Source of the DNA: Hyunsoonleella ulvae
GTDB lineage: Bacteria > Bacteroidota > Bacteroidia > Flavobacteriales > Flavobacteriaceae
DNA length: 64,000 nucleotides
Reading direction: 5' to 3'
Assembly (NCBI RefSeq): GCF_016827605.1
Contig: NZ_JAEPJQ010000001.1
Span: forward strand, 744,001 to 808,000
Each line of letters opens with the position of its first letter. Within the stretch, counting starts at the first letter, position 1. A program made the translations under genes and the position numbers. The notes below the pieces were generated by a model, which was given only the letters and a program-made list of their open reading frames with translations, did not search any database and was not told where the DNA came from. This document shows positions 22,194 through 46,631 of this stretch, one piece after another.

Positions 22194-25100
22194 TTAATGT
22201 TTTGTAATAAATAATTTGGTACTTACATCATCAAAAGCAATATCAATACCATTATTTATTTGGTCAATAATTTCAAGTTCTTCGGTTAATGTTTCAGTTT
22301 TTATGTATTCTATATTGGAGTCTACAGCTTGCTTAAGCTGCTCATCCTGTTGTAATTTTACATCTATTCTATCGGTAACCTCAAACCCAGAATCCTTTCT
22401 TAAATTCTGAATACGATTTACTAATTCTCTCGCAATACCTTCTTGTTTTAGATCATCGGTAATTGTAACATCTAGAGCCACTGTTAAGGTCCCTTCATTT
22501 GCTACTAACCACCCCTCTATGTCTTGAGAAGTTATTTCTACATCTTCGAGTCCTAATGTAATATTTTTTCCGTTTATTTCAACATCAAAACTTCCATTTT
22601 GCTCTATTTTGTTGATATCTTCAGCATTAAAGTTCATAATTGCTCCCGCAATGGCTTTCATGTCTTTCCCAAAACGAGGTCCTAGTACTTTAAAATTTGG
22701 TTTTATTTGTTTTACCAATATATCTGAAGCATCTTCTAACAACTCAATATCCTTAATATTTACCTCATGCTTTATTAAGTTAGATACCGCCAAAATTTCT
22801 TCTTTCCGTTGTGCACTATCAATTGGAATCATAATTTTTTGAAGCGGCTGTCTTACTTTTATCTTCTCTTTAGCTCTCAACGATAATACCAGCGAAGATA
22901 TTGTTTGTGCTGCTTCCATTTTTCGCTCTAAACTTTTATCAACAAATGATGCATCGTATACTGGAAAATCTGCTAAGTGTACACTCTCAAAAGCTTCTTT
23001 TTGGGTTACTGCATTTAAATCTAAATACAATTTATCCATGAAGAATGGTGCTATTGGCGCTGCTAACTTCGCAATTGTTGTCATGCATGTGTATAGGGTT
23101 TGATACGCCGAAATTTTATCGGTTTGGTAATCGCCTTTCCAAAAACGCCTTCTACTTAAGCGCACATACCAGTTACTTAAATAATCTTGTGTAAAATCTG
23201 AAATGGCACGAGCCGCTTTTGTAGGCTCGTAATCCGCATAATACGCATCTACTTTTTGGATTAACGTATGTAATTCTGATAGAATCCAACGGTCTAATTC
23301 TGGGCGTTCTGCTAATGGAATATTAGCTTCAGCATAACTAAATTTATCCAAATTGGTATATAAACTGAAGAACGAGTATGTGTTGTAAAGTGTTCCAAAA
23401 AACTTACGTTTTACCTCTTCTACACCATCTAAATCAAACTTTAAATTATCCCATGGATTTGCATTGGAAATCATGTACCAACGCGTGGCATCTGCACCGT
23501 AAGTACCTAATGTTTCAAAAGGATCTACAGCATTTCCTAAACGCTTAGACATTTTTTGTCCGTTTTTATCTAGTACTAATCCATTAGAAACTACATTTTT
23601 ATAGGCAATGGAATCAAACACCATAGTTCCTATGGCATGCAACGTGTAAAACCATCCTCTTGTTTGGTCAACGCCCTCTGCTATAAAATTCGCTGGAAAG
23701 GTTGTGCCCTCATCAATAAATTCTTTATTCTCGAACGGATAATGCCATTGTGCATAGGGCATAGAACCAGAATCGAACCACACATCTATTAAATCGCTCT
23801 CACGTTTCATAGGTTGTCCCGAGGGAGATACTAAGGTAATTTCATCAACAATATTTTTGTGTAAATCTAACTTGGCATAATTCTCTTCTGAGTTATTACC
23901 TACTTCAAAATCTGCAAAAATATCTTTTTCTAAAACTCCTGCTTCAACGGCTTTCGCCATTTCTGCCTTTAATTCCTCAACTGAACCTATACATAATTCT
24001 TCGGTGCCATCTTCGGTTCTCCAAATAGGTAAAGGAATTCCCCAATAACGTGAACGTGATAAATTCCAATCGTTTGCATTAGCCAGCCAATTACCAAATC
24101 GTCCTTCTCCTGTACTTTTAGGTTTCCAGTTTATGGTATTGTTTAACTCATGCATTCTATCTTTTACATCGGTAACCTTAATAAACCAAGAATCTAATGG
24201 ATAGTATAAAATAGGTTTATCGGTACGCCAGCAATTTGGGTAGCTGTGCTTGTATTTTTCAACCTTAAAGGCTTTATTTTCTTCTTTTAATTTAATGGCT
24301 ATTTCTACATCAACTGAACGTTCTGGAGCGCTTCCTTCGGTATAATATTCGTTTTTTACATATTTACCCGCCAGTTCTTTTAATTCCGGACGAAACTTTC
24401 CTTGTAGATCTACTAGCGGCACCAAATTGCCGTTCTCATCCTTTACCAACATTGGTGGCACTTCTGGCGTAGCTTGTTTTGCTACCAGAGCATCATCTGC
24501 ACCAAACGTGGGTGCTGTATGTACAATTCCTGTACCGTCTTCAGTGGTAACAAAATCTCCAGAAATAACTCTAAATGCGTTTTCTGGATTATCATTTGGA
24601 AGTGTATATGGCAATAATTGCTCATAGGTTATCCCCACTAAATCTTTACCTATAAATTCTTTAACCACATAAAATGGAATCTTTTTGTCTCCAGATTTAT
24701 AGTTTAACAATTCTGGCTTGGTATCTACTTGTGTAAACTTTCCTGAAAATTGATAGTTAACCAATTTTTTAGCCAAAATTACATTTATAGGTTGAAATGT
24801 GTATTGGTTATATGTTTCAACTAAAACATAATCGATTTTTGGACCCACTGTTAGTGCTGTGTTACTTGGTAATGTCCAAGGCGTAGTGGTCCAAGCTAAA
24901 AAATGAATATCTCCTTCATTCTGTAAAAACTCAGGAAGCGATTCTGGTTTTACTTTAAATTGTGCTACAATTGTTGTATCGGTTACATCTTGATACGTTC
25001 CAGGTTGATTTAACTCGTGCGAACTTAAACCTGTACCTGCTTTTGGTGAGTATGGCTGGATAGTATATCCTTTGTACAACAACTTTTTGTCATATATCTG

Positions 25101-25598
25101 TTTTAACAACCACCATACAGATTCCATATACTTAGGCTCGTAAGTAATGTATGGATCATCCATATCTACCCAATAGCCCATTTTTTCGGTAAGGTCGTTC
25201 CAAACATCGGTATATTTCATTACCGCTTTTCTACAAGCGGCATTGTATTCTTCAACCGAGATGGTTTTTCCTATATCTTCTTTAGTAATACCCAGTTCTT
25301 TTTCAACACCAAGTTCTATTGGTAATCCATGCGTGTCCCAACCCGCCTTTCGCTTTACTTGGTAACCCTTCATGGTTTTATAACGTGGAAAAATATCTTT
25401 GATGGCACGTGCTAAAACGTGGTGTACTCCTGGAAGCCCATTTGCAGATGGCGGCCCTTCATAAAACACGTAAGGTTCGTTTCCTTCTCTTGTGGTTACA
25501 CTTTTTTCAAAAATAGAGTTTTCCTTCCAATAGTTTAGAATGTCGCTAGCTACTTTTGGTAAGTCAAGTCCTTTATATTCAGCAAATTTCGTGCTCAT
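22194..25598 (-). CDS. ileS: Isoleucyl-tRNA synthetase
   Basis: Charges tRNA-Ile with isoleucine. The 1134 residues are longer than the E. coli enzyme (938) and resemble the long, eukaryote-like class. The class I signature appears as PPSANGLPGVHHVLARAI (HIGH equivalent, with His-His) and KMSKRLGN (KMSKS). A CP1 editing domain (about 200-440) contains the editing-pocket segment WTTTPWTLPSNTAL. The C-terminus lacks an obvious four-Cys zinc cluster. It starts a minus-strand unit with the DksA-like gene and lspA. A strong terminator for the gene upstream precedes it. Confidence 0.97.
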   Translation of the reverse strand: MSTKFAEYKGLDLPKVASDILNYWKENSIFEKSVTTREGNEPYVFYEGPPSANGLPGVHHVLARAIKDIFPRYKTMKGYQVKRKAGWDTHGLPIELGVEKELGITKEDIGKTISVEEYNAACRKAVMKYTDVWNDLTEKMGYWVDMDDPYITYEPKYMESVWWLLKQIYDKKLLYKGYTIQPYSPKAGTGLSSHELNQPGTYQDVTDTTIVAQFKVKPESLPEFLQNEGDIHFLAWTTTPWTLPSNTALTVGPKIDYVLVETYNQYTFQPINVILAKKLVNYQFSGKFTQVDTKPELLNYKSGDKKIPFYVVKEFIGKDLVGITYEQLLPYTLPNDNPENAFRVISGDFVTTEDGTGIVHTAPTFGADDALVAKQATPEVPPMLVKDENGNLVPLVDLQGKFRPELKELAGKYVKNEYYTEGSAPERSVDVEIAIKLKEENKAFKVEKYKHSYPNCWRTDKPILYYPLDSWFIKVTDVKDRMHELNNTINWKPKSTGEGRFGNWLANANDWNLSRSRYWGIPLPIWRTEDGTEELCIGSVEELKAEMAKAVEAGVLEKDIFADFEVGNNSEENYAKLDLHKNIVDEITLVSPSGQPMKRESDLIDVWFDSGSMPYAQWHYPFENKEFIDEGTTFPANFIAEGVDQTRGWFYTLHAIGTMVFDSIAYKNVVSNGLVLDKNGQKMSKRLGNAVDPFETLGTYGADATRWYMISNANPWDNLKFDLDGVEEVKRKFFGTLYNTYSFFSLYTNLDKFSYAEANIPLAERPELDRWILSELHTLIQKVDAYYADYEPTKAARAISDFTQDYLSNWYVRLSRRRFWKGDYQTDKISAYQTLYTCMTTIAKLAAPIAPFFMDKLYLDLNAVTQKEAFESVHLADFPVYDASFVDKSLERKMEAAQTISSLVLSLRAKEKIKVRQPLQKIMIPIDSAQRKEEILAVSNLIKHEVNIKDIELLEDASDILVKQIKPNFKVLGPRFGKDMKAIAGAIMNFNAEDINKIEQNGSFDVEINGKNITLGLEDVEITSQDIEGWLVANEGTLTVALDVTITDDLKQEGIARELVNRIQNLRKDSGFEVTDRIDVKLQQDEQLKQAVDSNIEYIKTETLTEELEIIDQINNGIDIAFDDVSTKLFITKH

Positions 25599-25712: not shown

Positions 25713-28700
25713 TTAATTCTTGATGAATTTTTTAGTAACTACTTGGTTATTATCCATCCTTAACACCGCTATGTAGGTGCCACTGGCTGTATTAGGAAGT
25801 TCTAATCCATCATTTAAAGTTGTTCGTTCCACATCAGCCAGCTCCATTATGGATTGCCCTCTTATGTTATACAGTGTAAACCGTTTTACCTCTCCATTGA
25901 GTTTCTTAGCATATAATCTGTTATCTAAAACATCATAATACACATAGTTTTCTTGAGCTATTGCTTCTTCACTGCTTAAAGTAACCGCTTCTGACTGGAA
26001 TACGATTTCTAACCTATCATTGAAGATGCCCTGCTCTGAAGTAAAACTATAGGGCTGATTGTTCCTTAGGTTAAAATAATCTCCTGTCAGGTAGTCCCTT
26101 AAATAAATTTCCTGGTCTTCTGGCATGTTCTCCAGCTCTGATATCCTAATCTCGAACGTATGGTCCCCAGATGACCTAAAATTCAATGGCACCACCTTAT
26201 CTGGAGCTATCTCCCCATAGGCCTGGATGTTCATATTCTTGCCTTCCATAACCAAACTTAAGTCATTATTACTTGCATCATGGGTCTCGGCATCATAACC
26301 ATAATCATAACCATCGGTAGTTTGGCTACTGAAACCTAGCAATAATTCCCGTTTTGTATCTGGTCCTGTTACAGCTTTAAACTCTAAACGCATCTTCTGA
26401 AGACTGTCTGTTTTAACATCCGCCGTTTTGGTTTGTTCTGTTTTGGATTTTTTATTATTATTTTTCAGGAATACCGACCCATTATTATAACTTCCATCTG
26501 CATCGGTTTCCTTTATAAAAATACGTTGCCCATTGTTGAACTCTACGTTACCATCCGCTACAATCTCGGTAATGAATCCTTGACCTACTGGCAAGTATCG
26601 TGTTGGTACTTTTGTTCCCTCTAGGCCTCCTGTTGTGGCACCTTCTAAACCAATAAACTGTGAGGCTCTTATCGCTCCTGTTTTATTTATCTGAGCATAG
26701 CCTCCATTGTAAGCATCTAAATTATGGGACGTACCGCTCCATTGTTGCCACAATTGTAAAGTTCCATCTATCACGCCTACATTATCGTCTATAAATTCAT
26801 GAACGTCTAATGCTGATGGATAGGGGTTACCCAATAAAAACTCGGTCTTACTTGTTCCTGCTACAGAACCTGCACCACCTCTATCTTCTACGGCTACCAG
26901 GATAGTACCGTTGTTGGGCTTACCTTCAAATATATACTGTTGTTCTGGGCTTAATACTCCTGTTCCCTTTTGTGTATAACCTACTCCCGGACTTATAGCT
27001 GTGCTTGTATCTATCTTTGCCCAGTCATAGTAGGTTAATCCATTAATATAAGTGTAAAGCCAATAGGTACTTATGTTGCCGTTGGCTGTATAGCTTTGGA
27101 TAAACTGACAGTTAAACCCTGATTGGTCTTTTAACATGTTTAGGCTAAACACTGAATTATTTGCATTGTTAATCGCTCCATTGTTATCTGTAAGTGTAGT
27201 TACGCCTTGTCCTCCTACAGGAGACGCCCAATAGTTATACCAATAGGCACTTGAGGTACCCTCCTGTCGTCTTAACACCTTACCAGTAGCAGATGTTACC
27301 AAATCACTAGTTTGGGTTTGAACTAATTGGGAGTCTCCCAATAAATCTAATGCACCGTTCAATTCTAAGTACCATGTGTTACGAATAAGATGATCTCCAT
27401 TTACTGTAAGTGTATTACCATCATCAATAATCAACCCTAACTGTTCGGTATCTCGATCAACTGTTATATTATTTGATATTTTTACGATACTATAGTTAGT
27501 ATTTAATGTTAATTTTGTGAGGTCCCAAACATTGCCATGTAACCATATAGCATCTGAACTCCAATTACCATCACTACCGGTAACATAAGGCATTGGTGCT
27601 GTTTGCTCTTGTATGGTGGTAATATTCCGGAGATATAGAAATTCGTTATTTTGTGAATAATCATTAGTCCTTCCTGTTACAATATCTGTCATAGGGTAAT
27701 AAGCAATCAAATTACTCCAAAGTACGTTTACATTTGTGCTAACATCCTTAATGGTCTTTTGCACAATAGTACCCTCTGTAAAACCACCGTTTTCTTGTAT
27801 TTCTTGATACACCATCTGGCTTATTTGGTCTGCTGTAAGCGCCACATTAAAAACGCGTACTTCATCAATATCGCCTTTAAAGTAAAGGTTATCTGTAACA
27901 TTTTCTGAAGATAATCTGCCTATCTCAAAATTACCATTAGTACTTATAGAACTTTCTATAACAGCACTTGTAGCTCCTATATTAACCGAACCTGATAGTT
28001 CTCCATCAACATACAACGATAAATCTCCTGTACTACCCGAATAAATACCAGCTATATGATGCCACTCGTCTTGGTTTACACTTGTACAACCGCAACCTAT
28101 TGTTGTGGTTGTACTATTACTTGTTCTAACAGTAAACATTGGTTTTATTCCATTTTGCAGCCATAGCTTAACACCAGTATCTTCGCCTGCAATTACCATA
28201 TCTGTGGTATTACCTCCATCAGATTTTACCCATGCCATGATACTTAAGTTCTCTAACCCATTTAAAAACGATGCTCTGGTTAGGTAATCATCTATACCAT
28301 CAAAATCTATAGATGCACTAGGTGGCGGGTTAACATCAAAAACATCTCTATAGTCTAAGTCTCCACCTAAAGTAAGGTCTGAATCTGTATCTGGTAAAAT
28401 ACTTAAATCTGTAGGATCTTCAATGTCTTCATTTACGTCTAAATTAGTGTCATTAATGTTTGTAGTTTCGAAGGCATCATCTAACCCATCATTATCTGTA
28501 TCAGAGCCTGTTAATGTATTTGGCATACCGTTCTCTTCGATATCTGGGATACCATCGTTATCGCTATCTGTGTCTAAATAATCTGGTGTTCCATCACCAT
28601 CGGTATCTTCTATAGATAATAGTCCAGGTCCATAATTATCATCTACACCATCATTATTAGTATCTGTAATTGCTGAACCATTTCCACTTGGCCCTATGTA

Positions 28701-31700
28701 ACCAACTGTGGGTTGCGCTTCCACATTATCTGGTATTCCATCATCATCAGAGTCTATATCTAAATGGTCTGATTTTCCGTCTGAATCAGAATCACAAAAT
28801 CGATACACCGCTGTTAAAGTAATTTCAACAAAGTCTACGAATAAATAATCATCTGCATAATCATCTCCAATTATTATATTCCATGTTCCCACATTTGGAT
28901 CTTCGTGGTACAAAGATGTTAGACTATTTTTTGGCAAAAACGTACCAGATTGTGGTAGATTGTATGTTGGATCTGCATCACTTGCAATTACTGTACCTGT
29001 ACTATTAAATACTTGATCTGCATCAATAAAAGACACCCCAGAACCAGCTCCAGAGCCGTAATCTCCATAGTCAACAAAGTTAATAACAGCACCACTCGGT
29101 GATTTTAATCCAAAATATTTTTCGTCTGCATAAATACGACCAGGTGAACCACTACATTTATCTCCTGGTGTTCCAGCAAATACCCCATCGAACATTTCAA
29201 ATTTAATTCTTATTGATATATCAGTTACCGTATAACCTGCTGGCACAGAAAAACTTCCTACTACAATTTCTTCTTCATTAATAGATTTTGCGCATGACAT
29301 GCCATCAACAAAAACAGGACTAGCAATATCTCCACCAATTGTTTCACTATACATAATTCCTGGACATTCATCAGTATCTAAAATTCCGTCATTATCATCA
29401 TCTAAATCAACTACATCTGAAAGACCATCTGCATCTGAATCATTGTAAACTGTTACAGTAGCTATAGCCGAAGAACAGTTAGCGGCATTTGCTACTTCAC
29501 AAATTTGATAAGTTACGGAGTAAGTTCCAACTGTTGTTCCTGCTGGAACAATTACACTTCCAGATGTATCAATGGAAACGCCTGTTAATCCACCATCTGC
29601 TATAATAGACATAGTAACATCAGAATCTACTACGGGGTTTCCATTCAATATATCATTTATCGTAGCATCTCCAGCAATTCCACCAAAAATATTTGTGACT
29701 GATGTGTTGTAAAAAAAGTCATCTACTGCTAAAATATTAATTGCATTTATGGTAATATTGCTTGAAGCTTTACATTGGTTAGTTAGATAGTCTAATGCTA
29801 TTACACTAAAATTGTATGTTCCTATAGAGGTTATTGGTTCAAGTGTTAAAGTAATAGAGCCACCATCTCCAAAAATACTATCGCTCATACTCATTTCTGA
29901 AGCATTTTCAATAAAATATAAGGTATTTTCTGCAGAATTTGAGATAATTATACTTTGTGGTTGATTAGTAAAAACGGTGTAACTAGTTTTGTCTGTAATA
30001 GGCGCACTAGGCCCAAAACAAGGAATAGTATAAGTAGAAGGACAAATAATTTCAGATGTATTGGGTTCTTTAACTCCAATACTTAAAACACCTCCTTCAT
30101 AAATTTGGTTTGCTACCGTAGTGTTTACTGGAATAGACCAAGTTGTTCCAGATGTAGTCACTTCACCCAAATAATATCCATCTATATATAGTGAAACTAT
30201 CGTATTTGCAACAGCACTTGCTAAAGTTCCACTAACCGTTGTTACATTAATATTGGATATAGGGCTTATGGTTCCGCAACGCAGATTAGAAACTGGCGCA
30301 AGTGCTGTAACCAAATTAGAATTTCCACTGGTACCACAAGCTGTAGTTAACGTAGCATAGTAAACTGTTCCTGCAACAGGAGTTGGTGAGGACAACGTCC
30401 AATTTCCTCCAGCCCCTACTGTGGTAGTTCCTAATAATACATTAGTCGCATTATCATAAACATTAATTGTTCCTCCTTCAACAGAAGCACTTCCTTGTAG
30501 TGGGCTTCCCGCAACTACATTACCATTATCATTATAGATAAAAGGTAATAGCACATCACAAATCACATTTCTTTGAACAGGAATTGAACATTTATCTTGA
30601 CTACTATCAACCGTACTAGGCAGAATTGCTCTTACTTCCACCACATCTCCTACTTGCAAAAATGAATTGGTGGTGTCATACGAATAAGTTCCTGCTGCTG
30701 TCGCTGTTGTTATACCTAAATTTATTGGAACAGCTGAACCATTTTTATACACTGCTAAAACTACACTAGAATTTGCAGGTGCAGTACCAGTTACCTCTGA
30801 AGTATTTGGCGATATGGGATTAGTTTCTATTGTTGCTACTGGTGTATCTGATTCAATGTTATTATTCACATACGTACAAAAATCGTAACATCTGGATTCA
30901 CATTTCCCTGATTCTTGATAGGTTATAAAATAACTTCCAGCTGGTATATCTCCTCCTGCAGTTCCAGAACAGGCGTTACCAGTGTCATAAACGCTCCCAT
31001 CCCAACCCCATTGCGTAACTGATGTAGCAAATGTGTGCTCAAACTCAAGAACCACGCCTCCTGTGCTACTATATCTATAAACCCTTGCTGTAACACCTGC
31101 AGGAATAACAGTTCCTGTAATAGCATTGTTAGTTCCAATTCTAATTCCTCTATGTGTTGTACAAATATCGTCGATGTCAAAACAGCTAGAAGTTGCACTG
31201 CAAGCAACCTCATTAGAAACCTGTACATTATTACTATCATAACAAGTAGCTTCTCCAGTACTAACAGCAGAGGCATTAATAACATCTCCGTCTGCAAGTG
31301 CGCTAACAGATAAATTCCAGCTTCCTCCAGAGGTTGCTGTAGTGGTTCCTATAGCTGTTCCGTTATTAAATACGGTAATCGTTGCCGTACTTTGTGTAGA
31401 GTAACTTGCAGCCGTCCAGCTTCCAGAAATGGTCGTTGCCCCAACTGTTATTGGAGAATTAACCGTTGGCGCATTAGTACACAAACCTGTAGGACAAGTT
31501 CCATCTAATATTTGTTGAGGCGTACAGGGAGGTGTAACTATAAGGTTACCTGAAGGATATGTGTCTGAAGAAGGTCCACATAATGACGGTTTAGGTGCCA
31601 TTACCGTAGCAATATCATATCGTAAAGGCGTAGTGCTTGTTAAAGGGGTACTTCCGCCCGAGAAGGCGGATAATGGCACATAAAAATCAATGAAATAATC

Positions 31701-32312
31701 GCTATCACCATCATTATTAGTTAATGCCGCTGAGGTTTGAACATGCTGTGGATTTGTTAACAAGGTTCTTTCCCATAGAAGATTACAGCTATTTCCATTA
31801 TTCACGTCATAGATAGAAATAGTGAATCCAGTTTGTACAACAACTTCATATTCAAATCCTGGATTGGATGTAGTATAAGTGGGATCAGAAACCCCAAACT
31901 TACTATCTGTATCTATTAAAACACTATAACCTTTTGCTCCCGCAACAATGTTACCCAAACGAAATCTTGTAAGTAAATTAGTTCCATCAAAATATTGATA
32001 AAATGCGTTTCCATTTTCATCTTGAACAAAGTCGCTAAATCCACCACTGGGCCCCATTGAGATGTCTCCTGAAGATTCTGCAGTAATAACGGGAACAGCA
32101 TAATAGGGAATTTCACTTGCCACTCCTATATCTGTAGTTGTAAACCCAGTATTGGTTGCAGAGACATACCCATCACCATTAGGATCTAAAACAGAAGATG
32201 AACTTTGAGGGGGAATATTTCCAGCACCATCTCTTACAATTAAACCCGGTGTTTGTGAAAACACAAAAAAAGGTAAAATCAAAAATGCAATACGTAGTAA
32301 TTTCATTTTCAT
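25713..32312 (-). CDS. Giant T9SS-secreted protein: Ig-like repeats, TSP3 repeats, LamG, sorting domain
   Basis: This 2199-residue exported protein starts at 32312, supported by a leader shared with its paralogue. A signal peptide (ending FVFSQ) is followed by a beta-rich N-terminal domain (about 20-265). Several Ig-like repeats follow (about 280-900, e.g. [14 protein letters not shown] and [16 protein letters not shown]). An Asp-rich thrombospondin type 3 stretch (about 957-982, [19 protein letters not shown]) precedes a P-domain-like beta-jelly roll (about 985-1170, ending [12 protein letters not shown]). More TSP3 calcium motifs follow (about 1171-1330), then a LamG fold (about 1332-1500, [23 protein letters not shown]). 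The last 80 residues are a type A T9SS sorting domain ending TKKFIKN. It should be surface-anchored or released. Ligand is unknown. About 1.09 kb of its 3' half nearly matches the next paralogue. Confidence 0.9.
25840..26930 (-). repeat. Near-identical 1.09 kb tract, copy A
   Basis: It matches 32690-33780 at a constant offset of 6850 bp with no indel. A 318-bp run (26556-26873) is identical base for base. Part of the rest that I compared by eye differs at about 3% of positions. Both edges are abrupt, although the flanking domains are also homologous. Confidence 0.9.
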
Positions 32313-32330
32313 AATTAATAGATTTGGGTA
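32310..32330 (-). promoter_or_regulatory. Shared leader of T9SS paralogue, copy A
   Basis: On the minus strand TTACCCAAATCTATTAATT runs straight into the ATG. The same sequence with one extra C and one substitution precedes the paralogue at 36798. The conservation supports both start codons and suggests common translation or transcription control. Confidence 0.55.
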
Positions 32331-32562
32331 ACTTTAAATGCAGATATGAATTAAAAATCTACACTTGTTAGATATTTAAATAAATACAAAATTCATTATT
32401 CATTTATGTTTAAACTCTTTATTAATTGGACTCATTTAACATAAATAAGTCACTATTAAATTAGAACATGCTAATGATATTGAATAAAGCATCTAAACTT
32501 AAAAAATCTGCTAGCTACAATTTTATCGTTCAAATGCATCGTCATTATACATGTTTTCTTTT

Positions 32563-35500
32563 TTATGGTTTTACTAATTTTTTAGCAATTACCTCATTAG
32601 TATACATACTCAATACAGCGATATACGTACCACTTGCACTGTTGGGCATTTCTAGTCCATTTTCAAGGACTGTACTGCCCACATCCTGTAGCTCCATTAT
32701 GGATTGCCCTCTTATGTTATACAGCGCAAACCGTTTTACCTCTCCATTGAGTTTCTTAGCATATAATCTGTTATCTAAAACATCATAATACACATAGTTT
32801 TCCTGAGCTATTGCTTCTTCATTGCTTAAAGTAACCGCTTCTGACTGGAATACGATTTCTAACCTATCATTAAAGATTCCCTGCTCTGAAGTAAAACTAT
32901 AGGGCTGATTGTTCCTTAGGTTAAAATATTCTCCTGTCAGGTAGTCCCTTAAATAAATTTCCTGGTCTTCTGGCATGTTCTCCAGCTCTGATATTCTAAT
33001 CTCGAACGCATGGTCCCCAGATGACCTAAAATTCAATGGCACCACCTTATCTGGAGCTATCTCCCCATAGGCCTGAATGTTCATATTCTTGCCTTCCATA
33101 ACCAAACTTAAGTCATTATTACTTGCATCATGGGTCTCGGCATCATAACCATAATCATAACCATCGGTAGTTTGGCTACTAAAACCTAGCAATAATTCTC
33201 GTTTTGTATCTGGACCTGTTACAGCTTTAAACTCTAAACGCATCTTCTGAAGACTGTCTGTTTTAACTTCCGCTGTTTTGGTTTGTTCTGTTTTGGATTT
33301 TTTATTATTATTTTTCAGGAATACCGACCCATTATTGTAGCTACCATCTGCATCGGTTTCCTTTATGAAAATACGTTGCCCATTGTTGAACTCTACGTTA
33401 CCATCAGCTACAATCTCGGTAATGAATCCTTGACCTACTGGCAAGTATCGTGTTGGTACTTTTGTTCCCTCTAGGCCTCCTGTTGTGGCACCTTCTAAAC
33501 CAATAAACTGTGAGGCTCTTATCGCTCCTGTTTTATTTATCTGAGCATAGCCTCCATTGTAAGCATCTAAATTATGGGACGTACCGCTCCATTGTTGCCA
33601 CAATTGTAAAGTTCCATCTATCACGCCTACATTATCGTCTATAAATTCATGAACGTCTAATGCTGATGGATAGGGGTTACCCAATAAAAACTCGGTCTTA
33701 CTTGTTCCTGCTACAGAACCTGCGCCACCTCTATCTTCTACGGCTACTAGGATTGTACCGTTGTTAGGCTTACCTTCAAATAAATATTGCTGCTCTGGCA
33801 GGGCTGTACCGGTACCTTTTTGGGTATAACCTATACCAGCACTTATGTCAGTGCTCTGCGTAATCTGGGCCCAATCGTAGTAGGTTAATCCATTTATGTA
33901 GGTGTAAAGCCAATAGGTACTTATATTGCCGTTGGCCGTGTAATTTGTAGTAAAGTTACACGCTAAACCAGATTCGTCCCTGAGCATACGAACATTAAAG
34001 GGGGAATTATTTGTATTGTTACTTGACGTATTGTTGTCCTTATAGCTAGTGGCTCGTAATGTCCCTATGGGAGATGCCCAATAATTGTACCAGTATGGAC
34101 TCGATGTCCCCTCTTGGCGTCTTAGCACCTTACCCTCTGATGAGGTAACGAGATCGCTCGTCATGGTCTGTACCAACTGAGAATCCCCTAAAAGGTCTAG
34201 GGTACCGCTTAGGTCTAGGTACCAGGTATTCGTAATGGAATGATCACTTTCAACGGTTAAAGTTGCTCCAGAATCTACGAGTAAGCTTGAAAATGAAATA
34301 TCTTCATCAATAGTAACGTCGTTTGATATTTGCACTATTCCATGCGCATTAACGGATGATGGGTTTTCTATATCCCATACGTTACCATGCTCCCAAGTAG
34401 ACTCTGATGTCCATGACCCTGAATTTGATGCCAAATAAGGCATTGGAGCTGTCTGATCTTGAATAGTAGAGATGTAATGTATGTATAACCATTTATCATA
34501 TCCTGAATAATCTGTTGTTCTTCCCATAACAATATTGGTCATAGGGTAATAAGCAATCAAATTACTCCAAGGTATCGTGTTACTAGTACTAGTATCGTGT
34601 ATAGGCTTTATTACTGTTTCTCCTCCAACTACACCACCGCTCTGTTGTATCTCTTGATATACCATCTGACTGATTTGACTGGATGTAAGTGCTGTATCAA
34701 ACACCCTTACTTCATCTATATCTCCTTTAAAGTATAAATGGTCTGAAACATCTTCTGTTGACAGTCTCCCAATTTCAAAATTATCGTTTGAATTCTCTGT
34801 GCTACTAATATTAGCACCTGTATTTCCAACATTTCCTGAATCACTCTGAACACCATCAACATATAAAAATACATCGCCAGTGGCACTAGAGTAGGAGCCA
34901 GTAACATGATGCCATTCATCATAAGCAATTGCTGTACAACTACAACCTATAGTTACTGGGGCATTACCATCGGTTGTTATAGTAAACATAGGTCTATTAC
35001 CATTATCTAACCATAATTTACACCCCGTATCTTCTCCAGCAATTACCATGTCTGTCGTATTTCCAGAATCTGTTTTTACCCAAGCCATGATGGTAACATT
35101 ACCCAAGCCATCTATAAAACTATTTGCTGACAAATAATCGTCTACGCCATCAAAATCAATGGATGCATAAGTTGGAGGGTTGATATCAAACAAATCCCTA
35201 TAATCTAAATCTCCTCCTAAGGTTAAGTCAAAATCTGCATCTGGTAATATAGATAAATCTGTTGGGTCTTCTATATCTTCATTTACATCCCAGATGTTAT
35301 CATTAACACCAGTAGTTTCAAATGCATTATTTAATCCGTCTGAATCAACATCTACAGCCGTAAAAGTATCTGCCATCCCATTTTCTTGAATATCATCATA
35401 ATTATCATTATCGGAGTTCAAATCAATAAAATCTGGAATATTATCATTATCAGTATCTTGAGGATAAATTCCACTTCCATAGGCTAGATCTATTCCTGTT

Positions 35501-36798
35501 ACAGGATCTATTGTTCCTGTTGGTAAAATATAACCCAATGTAGACTGCCCTTCAACATTATCGGGAATTCCATCGTTATCTGCATCTATATCTAAATGAT
35601 TAAAGAAACCATCTCCATCCGTATCTTCACCCCTTACAATATTTAATGAATTTGCATTAAAATCTAAAAACTGACATTGTGTGAATGACATCCCAAACAA
35701 TCGTGTGCTCGTGAATGAAAAGGTTTTTATAGCTTGCATTCTCATGGAAAAAGAATTTCCAACAAACTGATAATAAGCTCTAAGCACTTTTAAGTCAGAG
35801 AAACCTGGTCCTTCTTGCAGTCCAGATGCACTTATTTGAATATCTCCTCCCAAATCTAATATTTCTAATGAGGATGGATTTTCTATACCGTATGCAGCAG
35901 GGTTATAATATACTACTGACTCTTTTACACCACCAAAGCCATCACAGTCCCAAGTTATCCCATTAACTCTAAAAATTTCAGTTGACGGTGTAGTAGTTCC
36001 TGCATTTACTATAGTAAAATTAAATGTGGCCCCAGGTGTTCCTGTTCCAGAAAAAGTTAGTCTTGTTTGTAAATTACTAGGTGTATCTACAGTATCATCA
36101 TCAATATTGTCAATTGTAGTATTTGTTAACTCTGTGATTTCCATCAAGATGTCATATCCTTGGATAGAATTACTAAACCTATAAACAGCACCAACTGTAT
36201 CTATTGGTCCTGTGCTTGCTGCTGCATCATAAACTCCATTTTCAAATGCTAATTCAGGTAATGAACATTCAAATCTATTTTCTCCTAAATTCTCAATGGC
36301 ATCTGGTATTCCATCATTATCATCATCATAATCTAAATTATCTATTATACTATCTCCATCTGTATCTGGCTGTGAACTACAATTGGCATCTCCTCCTGAA
36401 ACATTAAAATAAATATCGTGTCCTGTGGAATTTGCGGCACTACCATTATCATTTATTACCTCTGTTCCTGCTACTGTAACTGATACATAACTTGAAGAAT
36501 TCCATCCGTCATTGGCTATATCGTATAATTTTATGTAATAATTAGTACCATTTGCAACACAGCCTAAGTTATACTTTGAACCGTAATCATTTGTAGAACC
36601 TTGCTGAGATGAAACATAACACTGATTATCATCACAAATAGTAGCAATCAAGTCGTTTGATGTATTGTAAACTTCTAGCTTATTTTCATAAGCATCGTTA
36701 TCCCAAACAACGATTATTTGCACGTCAGAATATTGCGAAAAAGAAAAATTAAACGCAAAAAAGGTTAAGAACAGACTAAAAAGTAGTTTTAGTTTCAT
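32563..36798 (-). CDS. T9SS-secreted TSP3/LamG protein, paralogue 2
   Basis: I start at the ATG at 36798 (MKLKLLFSLFLTF), which begins the signal peptide (ending FSFSQ) and matches the conserved leader. The frame opens 8 codons earlier. The 1411 residues comprise an N-terminal beta-domain (about 20-135), a short TSP3 motif (about 143-170, DTDGDSIIDNLDYDDDNDG) and a beta-sandwich region (about 175-385). A second TSP3 array (about 390-545) and a LamG fold (about 545-700, SIDFDGVDDYL, DEWHHVTGSYSS) follow. Then comes a large C-terminal region shared with the 2199-residue protein and a T9SS type A sorting domain ending IAKKLVKP. It lacks the Ig-like repeats of its larger neighbour. Ca2+-stabilised surface protein is the likely class; function is unknown. 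Confidence 0.9.
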   Translation of the reverse strand: MKLKLLFSLFLTFFAFNFSFSQYSDVQIIVVWDNDAYENKLEVYNTSNDLIATICDDNQCYVSSQQGSTNDYGSKYNLGCVANGTNYYIKLYDIANDGWNSSSYVSVTVAGTEVINDNGSAANSTGHDIYFNVSGGDANCSSQPDTDGDSIIDNLDYDDDNDGIPDAIENLGENRFECSLPELAFENGVYDAAASTGPIDTVGAVYRFSNSIQGYDILMEITELTNTTIDNIDDDTVDTPSNLQTRLTFSGTGTPGATFNFTIVNAGTTTPSTEIFRVNGITWDCDGFGGVKESVVYYNPAAYGIENPSSLEILDLGGDIQISASGLQEGPGFSDLKVLRAYYQFVGNSFSMRMQAIKTFSFTSTRLFGMSFTQCQFLDFNANSLNIVRGEDTDGDGFFNHLDIDADNDGIPDNVEGQSTLGYILPTGTIDPVTGIDLAYGSGIYPQDTDNDNIPDFIDLNSDNDNYDDIQENGMADTFTAVDVDSDGLNNAFETTGVNDNIWDVNEDIEDPTDLSILPDADFDLTLGGDLDYRDLFDINPPTYASIDFDGVDDYLSANSFIDGLGNVTIMAWVKTDSGNTTDMVIAGEDTGCKLWLDNGNRPMFTITTDGNAPVTIGCSCTAIAYDEWHHVTGSYSSATGDVFLYVDGVQSDSGNVGNTGANISSTENSNDNFEIGRLSTEDVSDHLYFKGDIDEVRVFDTALTSSQISQMVYQEIQQSGGVVGGETVIKPIHDTSTSNTIPWSNLIAYYPMTNIVMGRTTDYSGYDKWLYIHYISTIQDQTAPMPYLASNSGSWTSESTWEHGNVWDIENPSSVNAHGIVQISNDVTIDEDISFSSLLVDSGATLTVESDHSITNTWYLDLSGTLDLLGDSQLVQTMTSDLVTSSEGKVLRRQEGTSSPYWYNYWASPIGTLRATSYKDNNTSSNNTNNSPFNVRMLRDESGLACNFTTNYTANGNISTYWLYTYINGLTYYDWAQITQSTDISAGIGYTQKGTGTALPEQQYLFEGKPNNGTILVAVEDRGGAGSVAGTSKTEFLLGNPYPSALDVHEFIDDNVGVIDGTLQLWQQWSGTSHNLDAYNGGYAQINKTGAIRASQFIGLEGATTGGLEGTKVPTRYLPVGQGFITEIVADGNVEFNNGQRIFIKETDADGSYNNGSVFLKNNNKKSKTEQTKTAEVKTDSLQKMRLEFKAVTGPDTKRELLLGFSSQTTDGYDYGYDAETHDASNNDLSLVMEGKNMNIQAYGEIAPDKVVPLNFRSSGDHAFEIRISELENMPEDQEIYLRDYLTGEYFNLRNNQPYSFTSEQGIFNDRLEIVFQSEAVTLSNEEAIAQENYVYYDVLDNRLYAKKLNGEVKRFALYNIRGQSIMELQDVGSTVLENGLEMPNSASGTYIAVLSMYTNEVIAKKLVKP
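32690..33780 (-). repeat. Near-identical 1.09 kb tract, copy B
   Basis: Partner of 25840-26930. Beyond 33780 and below 32690 the two genes still encode related protein but with many synonymous and nonsynonymous differences, so the tract was homogenised after the duplication. Confidence 0.9.
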
Positions 36799-36819
36799 AA
36801 TTAACAGATTTGGGGTAAT
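36796..36819 (-). promoter_or_regulatory. Shared leader of T9SS paralogue, copy B
   Basis: TTACCCCAAATCTGTTAATT precedes ATGAAA on the minus strand, nearly identical to the leader at 32310-32330. The third paralogue has only a looser version (ACCTAAATCGACC before 38827). Confidence 0.55.
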
Positions 36820-36931
36820 CAAAATTATATAGTGTTAAGTTGTCTCATATTTTTACTGGTTAGGCATAAATCTGAATAACAACTGATTTTATATTGATAA
36901 ATATTATATTTCTCTTTTTTATTAAAGCACT

Positions 36932-38827
36932 TTAATCGGTCACATCTTCTCTTGCTAGCACGTCATTAAATTTAGTGTCTGCCTCTATTAACAAAGAGTT
37001 TCTTTCTAAATTTAAAGTTCCTTCCAAATCAAGGTAACTCGTTATCTTTAATTGTACACTTTGTTTTGTATCTCCTATGGTAAAAACCAAGTCTTCATCG
37101 TTTTGATAATGCTTTTTATCAACTATTAATGCCATTGCCTTAAAATCATTTACAGTATTTGCGTCCTCTGATAATTTTAAGGGCTTATTCAACACTACAT
37201 TATTTCTTACATGATAAATCCCCCATTTATAATCCTCATCTGAGTTGGACATATTATCGATAGTACCATCACCTGGAATTGCCCATTCATCTCCATATAG
37301 CCAAGTGCTTTTTTCATACCAATACCCATCTTGCTTCGTTACAAAAGGCATTGGTGCTGTTTGCGGATTTAAGGCTGCCATGTTATGAATAATTGCCGTA
37401 TTGCTTTTATTGGATTTATCTTCAACTTTAGCGTCTACGATAGCCGTCATTGGGTAGTACATTTGTAAATCTTTCCAATCTACTAAGCCTATTTGATTTG
37501 GTGTGATAGTACCTTTAAGCACTCCGTTTTCATTTTTAATTTCTTGAAACACAATAGCTTTAATCTCTTTATCACTCAAGGTAGTATTGAACAAACGAAT
37601 TTCGTCCATGCTACCTGTATAATATACATTAGACGCATCATGCTCTTTAGCCATCATGAATTTTTCGCTTGTTTTTGTAACCTCACTGTAAAATCCAACT
37701 ATATCTTGTTTTCCTGGATAAGCTAAATTTTGATGATGTACCCACATACCATCTATTGAGATGTCTGCGGTATCATTTTCAAAATCAATTACAACCGCTA
37801 CATGTCTCCATATCCCCTTTTTTAAGCCATATTTCCTTGAAAATTTCACAGTATGTAGACGACCAAACGGTGTTTTAAAGTGTCCTTCAACCTCTAAAGT
37901 AGACCCCACTGATTTTAATTCTAAGGCGTTATCCTCTCCAAAAAGGAAAGACGAAACGGTGCTTTCATCTTCAGCATCATTCTTAATCCAACCCATTAAT
38001 GTAATACCTTTAGCATTTGTTTCATTGAATTTAGAAAGTATTGCCTTTCCTGAAACATAGTCGTCCATCCCATCAAAATGAATAGCGGCTTTTTCTGGCG
38101 GATTGATATCATACAAATCACGATAATCTAAATCTCCATTAAAGCTTAAATCGTTATCGCTATCTGGTAAAATATTGTTTTTTATTTCATCTTGAATGCT
38201 ATATCCATCTCTCTTTTTGTTTCCTTCAAATACATCATCTAAACCATCAAAGTCTTTATCGGAATTAGAAATGGAATTTGCCATACCATTTTCTTCAATG
38301 TCTGGAGTACCATCGCCATCACTATCACTGTCTAAATAATCGTATGTGCCATCACCATCAGTATCTATGGGTTTAAGTCCACTGTTATAGTTGTTACAAA
38401 TTCCTGTTTCAGGATTTGTTGCGGCACTAGGCGGTTTATATCCTATACTAGATTGTGCTTCGATATTATCTAAAATACCATCATTATCACTATCTAAATC
38501 TAGGTGATTGGGAACACCGTCATTATCTCTATCTAAACTTTTACAGATACCGTAATTATTCAGAGCTTCGAAATCGGGATCTTTAAAATTGACCGTACCA
38601 TCTTTATCTATGTCTTCATCAGGGTTTTTACCAAAAGATTCATCTACATCACTTATACCATCGTTATCATCGTCTAGATCTATGATGTTAGCAATACCAT
38701 CTTTATCAGAATCTTCTAATTGATGGTTTGATGCTTTAGCAGCGTTTTCCCTCGTTTTTTTTTGTGCATTGCCAAGAACAACACAAAATGTAAGCAGTAA
38801 AACACTTAAACGTAGTTTTAGCTTCAT
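36932..38827 (-). CDS. TSP3/LamG secreted protein, paralogue 3, lacking the T9SS sorting domain
   Basis: A 631-residue relative of the two preceding proteins. A signal peptide (about 1-21, ending VLGNAQ) leads directly into a long Asp-rich TSP3 array (about 36-240, [19 protein letters not shown] and several repeats). A LamG fold follows (about 245-415, AIHFDGMDDYV, GIWRHVAVVIDF, GSMDEIRLFN). The region after it aligns with the paralogues up to YLDLEGTLNLERNSLLIEA and then ends in LAREDVTD, about where the others continue to [10 protein letters not shown]. There is no sorting domain, so it should stay periplasmic or leave by another route, unless the truncation has made it non-functional. The reading frame is otherwise clean, with no internal stop. 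Confidence 0.85.
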   Translation of the reverse strand: MKLKLRLSVLLLTFCVVLGNAQKKTRENAAKASNHQLEDSDKDGIANIIDLDDDNDGISDVDESFGKNPDEDIDKDGTVNFKDPDFEALNNYGICKSLDRDNDGVPNHLDLDSDNDGILDNIEAQSSIGYKPPSAATNPETGICNNYNSGLKPIDTDGDGTYDYLDSDSDGDGTPDIEENGMANSISNSDKDFDGLDDVFEGNKKRDGYSIQDEIKNNILPDSDNDLSFNGDLDYRDLYDINPPEKAAIHFDGMDDYVSGKAILSKFNETNAKGITLMGWIKNDAEDESTVSSFLFGEDNALELKSVGSTLEVEGHFKTPFGRLHTVKFSRKYGLKKGIWRHVAVVIDFENDTADISIDGMWVHHQNLAYPGKQDIVGFYSEVTKTSEKFMMAKEHDASNVYYTGSMDEIRLFNTTLSDKEIKAIVFQEIKNENGVLKGTITPNQIGLVDWKDLQMYYPMTAIVDAKVEDKSNKSNTAIIHNMAALNPQTAPMPFVTKQDGYWYEKSTWLYGDEWAIPGDGTIDNMSNSDEDYKWGIYHVRNNVVLNKPLKLSEDANTVNDFKAMALIVDKKHYQNDEDLVFTIGDTKQSVQLKITSYLDLEGTLNLERNSLLIEADTKFNDVLAREDVTD

Positions 38828-39069: not shown

Positions 39070-40428
39070 TTAGACTATACTATCAACCAAATCCTCAATT
39101 TTTGAAATCAACTGAATCTTAATCGATGTGTTTTTTAATGCTATTTTATTGTATCTTGATATAAATATAGTTGAAAAGCCCAATTTTTCAGCCTCCAAAA
39201 TGCGTTGTTCAACACGCTGTACGGGCCGTATTTCTCCAGAAAGTCCAACCTCAGCGGCAAAACAAAAATCATTTTGTAATGGTTGGTCTTCATTTGAAGA
39301 TAAAATAGCTGCTACTACTGCCAAATCAATTGCGGGGTCATCAACGGTTATGCCTCCAGTGATATTTAGAAATACATCTTTGGCACCCAAGCGAAAACCA
39401 GCACGTTTTTCTAGAACTGCTAATAGCATATTTAAGCGTTTTGCATTAAACCCAGTAGCACTTCGTTGTGGTGTACCATAAACTGCCGTACTTACCAAAG
39501 CCTGTACTTCAATCATTAAAGGACGCATTCCTTCCAAGGTTGCCGCAATGGCATTCCCAGAAAGCTCTTCATCTTTTTTGGAGATTAAAATTTCTGAAGG
39601 GTTTGATACCTCTCTAAGCCCCGAACCTTGCATTTCGTATATACCCAGCTCATTTGTTGAACCAAAACGATTTTTATGCGCTCTTAAAATTCTAAACACA
39701 TGATTTCTATCGCCTTCAAACTGCAATACCGTATCTACCATATGTTCTAAAATTTTAGGCCCTGCGATATTGCCATCCTTTGTTATATGACCTATTAAAA
39801 TTACTGGTGTAGCCGTTTCTTTGGCAAACTTTATAAGCTCCGTAGTACATTCTTTTATTTGGGAAATACTGCCAGAGGACGACTCTATATAATCACTATG
39901 TAATGTTTGTATGGAGTCTATGATAACAATATCGGGTTCTAACGCCTCTATTTGCTTGAATATATTTTGAGTTTTGGTTTCCGTAAGGATATAGCAATTG
40001 TTATTTTCTGGGTTAATACGTTCTGCACGCATTTTTATTTGCTTCTGGCTTTCTTCTCCAGAAACATAAAGCGTTTTGTAGGGTAACCTCAATGAAATTT
40101 GAAGCAATAAGGTACTTTTCCCTATACCTGGCTCCCCTCCTAAAAGGGTTAACGACCCTGGTACGATGCCTCCACCTAAAACTCTATTAAATTCGTTGTC
40201 CAGACTACTTAATCGTGCTTCTTCCGAAAGATCTATATCCTTTATCTGTAAAGGTTGTGATGCTCTTTTTTTAGGATTAGATTGAGTTTTCCAATCGTTT
40301 TTTTCAGGTTTTTGCAATACTTCTTCTACAATAGTATTCCATTCTTTACATGCGTTGCACTGCCCTTGCCATTTGGCATATTGTGTGCCACAATTTTGAC
40401 AAAAAAATGTAGTTTTTACTTTTGCCAT
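39070..40428 (-). CDS. radA: DNA repair protein RadA
   Basis: RecA-related branch-migration helicase acting in recombinational repair. The 452 residues show an N-terminal four-Cys zinc finger (FFCQNCGTQYAKWQGQCNAC), the Walker A GGEPGIGKSTLLLQ, Walker B DIVIIDSIQT, the RadA-specific KNRFGSTNELG motif, and a C-terminal Lon-like domain (TGGITVDDPAIDLAVVAAIL). Complete and of standard length. It is last in a minus-strand series beginning with panC; the 103-bp gap before it may hold its own promoter. Confidence 0.97.
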   Translation of the reverse strand: MAKVKTTFFCQNCGTQYAKWQGQCNACKEWNTIVEEVLQKPEKNDWKTQSNPKKRASQPLQIKDIDLSEEARLSSLDNEFNRVLGGGIVPGSLTLLGGEPGIGKSTLLLQISLRLPYKTLYVSGEESQKQIKMRAERINPENNNCYILTETKTQNIFKQIEALEPDIVIIDSIQTLHSDYIESSSGSISQIKECTTELIKFAKETATPVILIGHITKDGNIAGPKILEHMVDTVLQFEGDRNHVFRILRAHKNRFGSTNELGIYEMQGSGLREVSNPSEILISKKDEELSGNAIAATLEGMRPLMIEVQALVSTAVYGTPQRSATGFNAKRLNMLLAVLEKRAGFRLGAKDVFLNITGGITVDDPAIDLAVVAAILSSNEDQPLQNDFCFAAEVGLSGEIRPVQRVEQRILEAEKLGFSTIFISRYNKIALKNTSIKIQLISKIEDLVDSIV

Positions 40429-44885: not shown

Positions 44886-46631
44886 ATGAATAAGATATTG
44901 AAAGCCCCTCGCTATGCTGTTGCCTTATTGGGTATTTTTTTAATAGCATTAAGTTGTGATACAGAGTACAGTTCTATAGAAAGTAGTGTTCTAGGAGAAA
45001 ATAATTTTAACTTCAATGCTAGTGCTTACGAAATTCCTATTAAAACATACAACAAGAACTTATCAGCACAACAGATAAATGGGTTAACGGCCAACTTGCT
45101 TGGTTTTTTCAACGATCCAATTTATGGGCAAACCACTGCTAGCATAGTTACACAAGTTGTTCCATCTAGTTTTGCTACAAATAGCGCTACTATGTTTGGA
45201 GTAAATCCTGTAATAGAATCCGTAACGCTTACCATCCCTTATTTTAGTACGCAAACAAGTATAGATACAGATGGGAAACCTGAATATAAAATAGACTCAT
45301 TATTTGTTGAAGACAACAATCCAGAAAATATCAAAGAAATAAGTTTAAAGGTATATGAGAATACATATTTTTTGAGAACTTTCAATCCAAACGATTTAGA
45401 AAACAACTCTCAAAACTATTTTTCTAAAGCTGATGGAACAATAAACAATATTGATAATTTTTCTGAAATTGAAAGCGGCACAATTAATTTTGACGAACAT
45501 AAAGGCTTGATGTTTTGTGACAGCCTATACACCATATCTCCTGATGCAAGAGAGATAGAGACAGAGATTGAGAACACTCCGTCGACGTTTTTACCTCCAG
45601 CTCTTGTTCTTGAATTAGCAACAACCCAAACGAGTAAAAACCGTTGGCAATCCTTAATATTGGATCAAGCTGGTTTACCTACTCTTAGCAACTCTAACAA
45701 TTTTCTTAATCATTTTAGAGGGTTGTACATAAAAGCCCAAGCAGTAAATAATCAAGGTAGTATGGTATTGCTAAATTTAGCAGACAGCGGAGCAACCCTT
45801 ACAATAAATTACTCCAGCGATGATGGCACCGATGCAGATACTGATAGAGACACGGGAAGTTATACACTTAACTTTACTGGTAACAGATTAAATACATTTA
45901 TAAATAACTACAACTCTATTTTACCTACAACACCCAATACTACCGAGGGCGATGAAAAATTATATTTAAAAGGCACTGAAGGTGCTATGGCTGTTATTGA
46001 ACTATTTAGTGGCATTGGAGATTGTGGAGAGGATGCTCTGGAATGTTTTAAAACGTTTTTTAGGGAAACTGATGAAAATGGTAATGTATTGGACCCAATT
46101 AACGAACAATACAGACTTAAGCGCTTAATAAATGAAGCGCATCTAGTTGTTTATGAAGATAATGCTTTTATAACACCTGAAGACCCAAAAGACCTCAATG
46201 GTGAAGATTATCACAGGTATGACAGGCTATATCTTTACGATTTAGAAAACAACGCTCCCATTTTAGATTACAATACAGATATTACTACAGATGCTAGCAA
46301 TCCTCTAATATCAAGAACATTTAGCTTAGGTAGAAGGATAACTGATGAAAATGGCGTGTCTAAATACAAACTTAAAGTCACAGATCTACTAAACAACATT
46401 TTAGTTAGAGATGCCGATGTTAACAAATTAGGGTTAGTGCTTACCAACAATGTTAATATTAATTTAAACACCTCGTTATTAAACAGTGTAGATAACGTTA
46501 CAGGCACACCTGCAACCGCTATTATTACACCCAGAGGTACTGTATTACACGGCAGCAACACAACGGCTACAACTAGTGATGGAACAAGTAAAAAATTCCG
46601 ATTGGAAGTGTTTTTTACTGAATTAAAATAG
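44886..46631 (+). CDS. DUF4270 outer-surface lipoprotein
   Basis: A 581-residue lipoprotein. The signal peptide ends LIALSC, with the acylated Cys at residue 24. DUF4270 features are the early TYNKNLSAQQINGLTANLLG and FFNDPIYGQTTASIVTQ and a beta-rich body ending LHGSNTTATTSDGTSKKFRL. Function is not established. It begins 26 bp after the glycogen synthase homologue and is followed by glmS after 161 bp, an arrangement I recall as conserved in Bacteroidota. A link to envelope sugar metabolism is only inference. Confidence 0.88.
   Translation: MNKILKAPRYAVALLGIFLIALSCDTEYSSIESSVLGENNFNFNASAYEIPIKTYNKNLSAQQINGLTANLLGFFNDPIYGQTTASIVTQVVPSSFATNSATMFGVNPVIESVTLTIPYFSTQTSIDTDGKPEYKIDSLFVEDNNPENIKEISLKVYENTYFLRTFNPNDLENNSQNYFSKADGTINNIDNFSEIESGTINFDEHKGLMFCDSLYTISPDAREIETEIENTPSTFLPPALVLELATTQTSKNRWQSLILDQAGLPTLSNSNNFLNHFRGLYIKAQAVNNQGSMVLLNLADSGATLTINYSSDDGTDADTDRDTGSYTLNFTGNRLNTFINNYNSILPTTPNTTEGDEKLYLKGTEGAMAVIELFSGIGDCGEDALECFKTFFRETDENGNVLDPINEQYRLKRLINEAHLVVYEDNAFITPEDPKDLNGEDYHRYDRLYLYDLENNAPILDYNTDITTDASNPLISRTFSLGRRITDENGVSKYKLKVTDLLNNILVRDADVNKLGLVLTNNVNINLNTSLLNSVDNVTGTPATAIITPRGTVLHGSNTTATTSDGTSKKFRLEVFFTELK

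Follow-up and report, generated by a model that had tools for sequence, protein, structure and literature searches.

What are the three large, putatively secreted proteins whose genes lie side by side between radA and ileS in Hyunsoonleella ulvae, and what keeps the C-terminal halves of two of them alike? These genes, here named P1, P2 and P3, are carried by a window of 64,000 nt (assembly GCF_016827605.1, contig NZ_JAEPJQ010000001.1, positions 744,001 to 808,000 of the forward strand), to which all coordinates below refer. The favoured answer, given a probability of about 0.65, is that the radA-ileS interval is a fixed site for an array of RemA-type adhesins of the type IX secretion system (T9SS), in which exchangeable heads are carried on locally homogenised tails. 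The basis of this answer at the sequence level is the architecture of the proteins, their homology to RemA and RemZ, the conservation of the site, tracts of gene conversion and three head transfers.

All three genes are on the minus strand, as are the features located below unless stated otherwise, and each begins with ATG. P1 (25713..32312, 2199 aa) occupies the slot adjoining ileS; P2 (32563..36798) encodes 1411 aa as counted from its ATG, the list of open reading frames (ORFs) beginning it 8 codons earlier, at a TTG; P3 (36932..38827, 631 aa) occupies the slot adjoining radA. The flanking genes, outside the array, are ileS (22194..25598; TIGR00392, E 4.6e-301), in conserved synteny, and radA (39070..40428; TIGR00416, E 3.2e-178). 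Each protein starts with a signal-peptide-like stretch (judged by eye only), which is followed in P1 by a large head (28794..32255, residues 20-1173) and in P2 by a head at 35629..36741 (residues 20-390). Then come Asp-rich repeats (28476..28793 in P1 and 35326..35625 in P2, both ahead of LamG; 38234..38713 in P3) and a LamG domain recognized by PF13385 (27819..28298 in P1, E 8.4e-25; 34669..35151 in P2, E 6.8e-25; 37559..38038 in P3, E 5.1e-10). The original prediction, made from the letters of this DNA alone, of three adjacent same-strand genes of these lengths with Asp-rich arrays followed by LamG is thus borne out by the ORFs, by a regular expression and by PF13385. The regular expression D-x-D-x-D-G/N-x-x-D/N (DxDxDGxxD-type) finds 7 repeats in P1, 5 in P2 and 8 in P3; in both P1 and P2, one block of them lies directly ahead of LamG and another farther upstream. 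The name TSP3 given to these arrays is based on the Asp motif, as the TSP3 models of Pfam match none of P1-P3 even at E 10. The Ig-like repeats and the P-domain-like fold also ascribed to P1 are unsupported, though not excluded, by sequence searches (Pfam gave nothing up to E 10 and, for the P-domain segment, PDB sequences gave nothing below E 0.2). The head of P2 gave a weak model (pLDDT 63.6) that resembles the variable domains of streptococcal antigen I/II (E 5.8e-4, TM about 0.3), a likeness that is only a lead.

RemA and RemZ are T9SS substrates of Flavobacterium johnsoniae, and RemA is a gliding adhesin. A profile built from 27 regions running from LamG to the protein end (from the window and from named loci) matches RemZ (whole-sequence E 4.7e-45, profile positions 439-869) and RemA (E 6.7e-33, positions 468-869), in each case with a second, weaker stretch upstream of the main match (E about 0.0007). 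The homology covers the last ~430 residues of both P1 (25716..27017, residues about 1766-2199, placed by alignment to P2) and P2 (32566..33867, residues about 978-1411, placed by the profile match), tail included. Judged by their ends, P1 and P2 are therefore new members of the RemA/RemZ-type T9SS adhesins, and the idea of an undescribed surface system is rejected. The long C-terminal region that they were said to have in common is real (~700 residues after LamG) but unequally conserved, being near-identical over about 365 codons only. Of the T9SS sorting domains announced for both proteins, that of P1 is recognized as type A by TIGR04183 (26.1 bits, NCBIfam cut-off 23) but stays below the Pfam cut-off of 27 with PF18962 (23.2 or 16.1 bits); the tail of P2 has no type A match and scores 17.3 bits with the type C model (cut-off 40), although it aligns with the tails of P1, RemA and RemZ. 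P3 ends inside the post-LamG region and lacks both the RemA/RemZ-like region and the sorting tail. The genome encodes GldL (E 1.2e-65), the sole T9SS or gliding component searched, and a PF18962 search for sorting tails gives 57 matches (E up to 0.001). According to the available parts of two papers, RemZ is a type A substrate that was trapped in the T9SS of F. johnsoniae, tails of the RemA/RemZ family being seen in the T9SS pore (PMC10994853), and RemA is found at the cell surface in foci, some of them mobile and others immobile, and is released in part (PMC12618676); those parts mention neither gene conversion nor head transfer.

The proteins might instead be structural (S-layer-like) or harvest carbohydrates, rather than being adhesins. 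The best PDB match of LamG by sequence is indeed the S-layer domain protein 4qvs, and structure and profile matches place the LamG-type fold in carbohydrate-binding proteins and glycosidases as well. However, domain-profile searches of P1-P3 found no catalytic domain, and the protein ends are homologous to the RemA/RemZ adhesin family, so that a structural or harvesting role appears unlikely. A fold search with a model of the C-half (moderate, score 69.2) gave pentraxins as top matches (E 4.4e-10).

The second line of evidence for the adhesin array is its position. The site was read at 52 loci, i.e. in 12 genomes of the genus and at 40 loci outside it; second sites (L161, L162), control arrays (L071 and L112-L133, including L132 and L133 with less than two members each), the loci of the initial look-ups of P3 relatives and further matches in G019, G180, G181, G275 and G363 were kept apart from this set. 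Either radA or ileS was seen at 48 of the 52 loci and both flanks at 40, of which 38 hold 1-5 members (short tail-only ORFs counted), a proportion that is not a frequency for the family, since the loci outside the genus were picked for the strongest C-half match. These 40 loci comprise 21 with one member, 12 with two, 4 with three, 1 with five and 2 with none. The co-occurrence in relatives that the original prediction called for is thus observed. Its further proposal, a locally expanding family, applies to the array itself, but a search of the H. ulvae genome with P1 gave 11 matches, namely P1, P2, P3, a tandem trio on C20 and others found singly (one gene each on C1, C18 and C19, a match to the head alone on C2 and one to the repeats alone on C22). 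Purely local expansion is rejected, as paralogues lie elsewhere in the genome and the array is present in other genera.

Several observations concern the site in individual genomes. The radA-ileS gap of G003 (L110 2373-5630) contains two unrelated ORFs (706 aa and 296 aa) on opposite strands and no array. In three arrays, ileS is adjoined by a short ORF (125-303 aa) made of a tail alone, which may be what is left of a lost member (L134 15707-16615; L140 5789-7305; L099 6380-6919). The contigs of four drafts (G002, G010, G196 and G206; L081/L082, L086, L135, L151) stop in or beside the array, as expected where assemblies are broken by near-identical copies. In G006, the open frame in the slot adjoining ileS (L077 3728-9169) consists almost entirely of N, 1813 aa being an apparent length only.

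The likeness of the P1 and P2 tails is concentrated in a tract of 1,093 nt at 97.8% identity (24 differences), flanked by sequences at about 64%, which extends over 25839..26933 in P1 (codons 1794-2158) and 32689..33783 in P2 (codons 1006-1370) and whose score was reached by none of 2000 codon shuffles. Four-fold degenerate sites are identical at 128 of 139 positions in the tract, compared with 21 of 61 before it and 4 of 10 after it, a pattern not expected from selection at the protein level. Large tracts (score over 500) were found in 8 of the 15 arrays that are flanked by radA or ileS and have at least two C-halves (G000, G007, G008, G104, G078, G208, G380 and G371), with lengths of 1,093-3,348 nt, identities of 95.2-100% and extents that differ between species. 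This count was made by position, an earlier one having dropped the identical tails of G208 and G371. The partner genes are not neighbours in the G380 tract and in the larger G371 tract. Large tracts are absent from all 21 other arrays examined in the family (best 284 nt, score 176), although identity over the rest of the gene spans 46.5-74.5% in these arrays and 44.5-73.1% in the eight that have tracts. The trees point in the same direction: the LamG tree rejects a clade of P1 and P2 (p 1.0e-4) and one of the two genes of G007 (p 7e-10), and the tract tree rejects pairing P2 with the orthologue from G006 (p 0.004) or G007_c with G001_c (p 0.003), all these p-values being optimistic since the clades were named after the first trees had been seen. 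Moreover, the P2 C-half is only 73.6-84.6% identical (nt) to that of the close relative G006, below the head. Thus, the modular N-termini on a shared half seen by the original prediction are retained, whereas the C-halves of P1 and P2 look constant mainly owing to recent gene conversion.

Could such tracts be assembly artefacts, i.e. collapsed or mis-duplicated repeats? The contigs that end in or beside the array in the four drafts named above and the 100% identity of the G007 tract would fit this explanation. However, the tract of the window bears 24 differences, the two single-contig genomes (G208 and G371) have tracts at 97.8% and 99.9%, and tract extents vary between species. Artefacts are therefore rejected as a general cause and have very little probability left.

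The third line of evidence for the array reading concerns the heads. Among 77 members from 48 genomes, 75 heads could be placed in 21 clusters, those of G008 and G010 being too short to compare. Three pairs of heads from different genomes are more alike than the ileS genes of the same genomes: G007_c and G298 (95.4% nt against 79.4%, +16.0 points), P1 (codons 20-1200) and G078 (90.9% against 78.6%, +12.3 points), and P2 and G006 (96.5% against 88.4%, +8.0 points; 96.6% over codons 1-400 of P2). The same holds at four-fold sites, with 81%, 79% and 92% identity for the heads of G007_c, P1 and P2, respectively, and 46%, 45% and 62% for ileS. G298 and G078 belong to one genus, which differs from that of the window. 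The identity between G007_c and G298 drops to about 46-63% from codon 441, and that between P1 and G078 declines from 80% (codon 1241) to 47% (codon 1361), beside the TSP3/LamG junction and just downstream of the repeats of P1, whereas the identity between P2 and G006 fades gradually across codons 400-700. Upstream, the match between P1 and G078 reaches about 180 nt past the start codon and that between G007_c and G298 begins 16 nt before the start. These comparisons indicate three head transfers between species, two of which are cross-genus with breakpoints near the TSP3/LamG junction.

A passive concerted evolution, in which chance RecA recombination homogenises tandem direct repeats that are still alike while the heads drift and no exchange is selected, has to be weighed against this. 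The genes are tandem and on the same strand, large tracts are missing from 7 of the 15 flanked arrays and, when P2 is compared with its orthologues in G007 and G009, the part of the C-half that is conserved best falls inside the tract, so that prior likeness might have seeded the tracts. Alone, such a process does not account for cross-genus head transfer, and the 21 other arrays are free of large tracts despite an equal range of identity over the rest of the gene. It is a serious rival for the tail part and, as an explanation of the whole, possible but clearly less probable than the array of RemA-type adhesins with exchangeable heads.

Further observations weigh against the latter, in addition to the choice of loci and the optimistic p-values mentioned above. 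P1 alone, used as query, finds neither RemA nor RemZ up to E 1, so that the profile is needed, and neither LamG nor the heads are matched in the RemA and RemZ chains. The missing type A match of the P2 tail and the missing tail of P3 also count here, as do the seven flanked arrays without a large tract, to which G355 (five members) and G181 (two), for which no flank was read, could be added (8/17). Within the genus, two of the 12 genomes, G003 and G011, lack any member at the site, the empty site of the latter measuring about 1.2 kb from flank to flank, and a close C-half (E at most 1e-95) occurs in no more than 45 of the 397 genomes sampled from the family. Finally, only 3 of 157 between-genome head pairs within clusters exceed ileS identity, the median pair lying 17 points under ileS; most heads simply diverge.

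P3 differs from its neighbours by its length, and its short form is also found in G006 (83% aa) and G004 (75% aa), the nearest named relative being that of Hyunsoonleella pacifica (83%). Its dN/dS of about 0.11 (0.107-0.119 among three orthologues) indicates purifying selection, and a decaying pseudogene is rejected on these values. Together with the retention of the short form, they mark P3 as a maintained protein without a sorting tail. In the LamG tree, P3-type short genes group with full-length genes of G007 and G001 and with short ones of G002 and G010.

Many members also share a motif, CCCAA, located mostly 15-30 nt ahead of the start codon and often flanked by complementary A/T-rich bases. 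It is found in 84 of 162 leaders of the family and in 21 of 473 other ORFs. When leaders are anchored on CCCAA with no requirement for pairing, the best register gives 236 Watson-Crick pairs out of 504, whereas shuffled partners give 185 on average (sd 10) and reach that number in 0 of 2000 trials, this register being the best of ten and the excess being inflated by sequence relatedness. For a stem of at least 5 pairs around a CCC loop, the counts are 56 of 162 leaders in the family, 14 of 462 elsewhere and 4 of 624 after shuffling. The leader comparison places CCCAAATCTATTAATTATG at the start of P1 (32310..32328) and CCCAAATCTGTTAATTATG at the start of P2 (36796..36814). Within the window, the motif is clear but the hairpin is not: none of the three genes passes the strict stem test, the leader of P2 allowing 4 pairs as read from the sequence. 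The pattern WTAGYCCCAAACTAW has no match in the H. ulvae genome, and GATTTN{0,1}CCCAAATC has 17 matches in 12 genomes, 4 of them at array gene starts, against 6 for the reversed control. The leader hairpin is rejected as a general mark of T9SS genes. Among the 57 PF18962 matches of the genome, P1 was set aside, 56 starts were fetched and 54 were readable (with guessed start codons); of these, 5 have CCCAA upstream and 2, which both belong to the C20 array, a stem of at least 4. CCCAA precedes 3 of 113 other genes of the genome, none with a stem of at least 4.

A stronger proposal can be made from these elements: radA-ileS would be a dedicated diversity-generating adhesin site, in which a head and its TSP3-like repeats form the exchange unit, the repeats act as a recombination hinge, CCCAA marks and co-regulates the members and continuing tail conversion keeps incoming heads compatible with local export and anchoring. 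This is doubtful; if it were true, the binding targets of cells would vary within a species.

For the favoured array of RemA-type adhesins, the following model can be drawn. A full-length member would consist of a signal-like N-terminus, a variable head, Asp-rich TSP3-like repeats, LamG and a RemA/RemZ-like half with its sorting tail. The C-half and the tail would take the protein through the T9SS pore to the cell surface, where the head and LamG would bind a ligand. Calcium is known to stiffen TSP3 repeats and might do so for these Asp-rich repeats. Members of the array would overwrite one another's C-halves by gene conversion, and some heads would be replaced, together with their repeats, from other species, the repeats perhaps serving as a recombination hinge; in both transfers across genera, the breakpoints lie close to the TSP3/LamG junction. 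New binding heads would thus be joined to a tail that is kept matched within the genome. We infer secretion, surface display, ligand binding and a role in gliding or attachment, and head exchange may be adaptive.

This evolution is a variation on known diversification of surface proteins. In the silent-cassette systems of pilins and surface antigens, recombination between paralogues alters the exposed part of a surface protein, as here. P1-P3 differ from these systems, as each has its own ATG and signal-like N-terminus; no silent-cassette layout was seen in the window, to which this search was confined (members in relatives were called from ATG, with 5'-cut ones left out), and no dedicated recombinase was found among the 10 neighbouring genes scanned. 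The resemblance of P1 and P2 to RemA and RemZ is limited to the last ~430 residues and the tail, LamG setting them apart, and a gliding role is putative. No account of the radA-ileS array or of its tail conversion was recognized in the titles and abstract starts of the open-licence literature, part of this search being weak because the term for RemA also hits ordinary words. An article on RemA by Shrivastava et al. (2012) may describe genes resembling remA beside it, a point relevant to novelty. PMC5808330, in its accessible part, names gene conversion only within a reference. The nearest published comparison found is that of the Kgp, RgpA and HagA adhesins of Porphyromonas gingivalis, surface adhesins of a T9SS bacterium whose adhesin domains, according to the accessible part of PMC5266723, owe their diversity to domain rearrangement, allelic exchange and gene conversion. 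As far as that part goes, exchange there concerns strains of a single species and affects the adhesin domains, whereas the radA-ileS array has homogenised tails, heads crossing genera and a fixed site; the proteins have no shown relation to P1-P3.

Other scans of the window provided little: no tandem repeat was detected within the array, predicted promoters are at chance level (54 against 57.3 expected), terminators are near it (9 against 6.7) and Rfam gave one tRNA and nothing else. A gene of the BamH family, part of the outer-membrane assembly machinery of Bacteroidota, lies near the array (44886-46631, plus strand; NF053686, 465.7 bits, cut-off 420).

As a result, LamG proteins that had no name are now tied to the RemA/RemZ family, and the radA-to-ileS interval offers a fixed locus, amenable to PCR, to study the turnover of adhesins in natural populations. 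With heads that move between genera and tails that are homogenised at home, marine Flavobacteriaceae may change what their surface binds without changing how it is exported.

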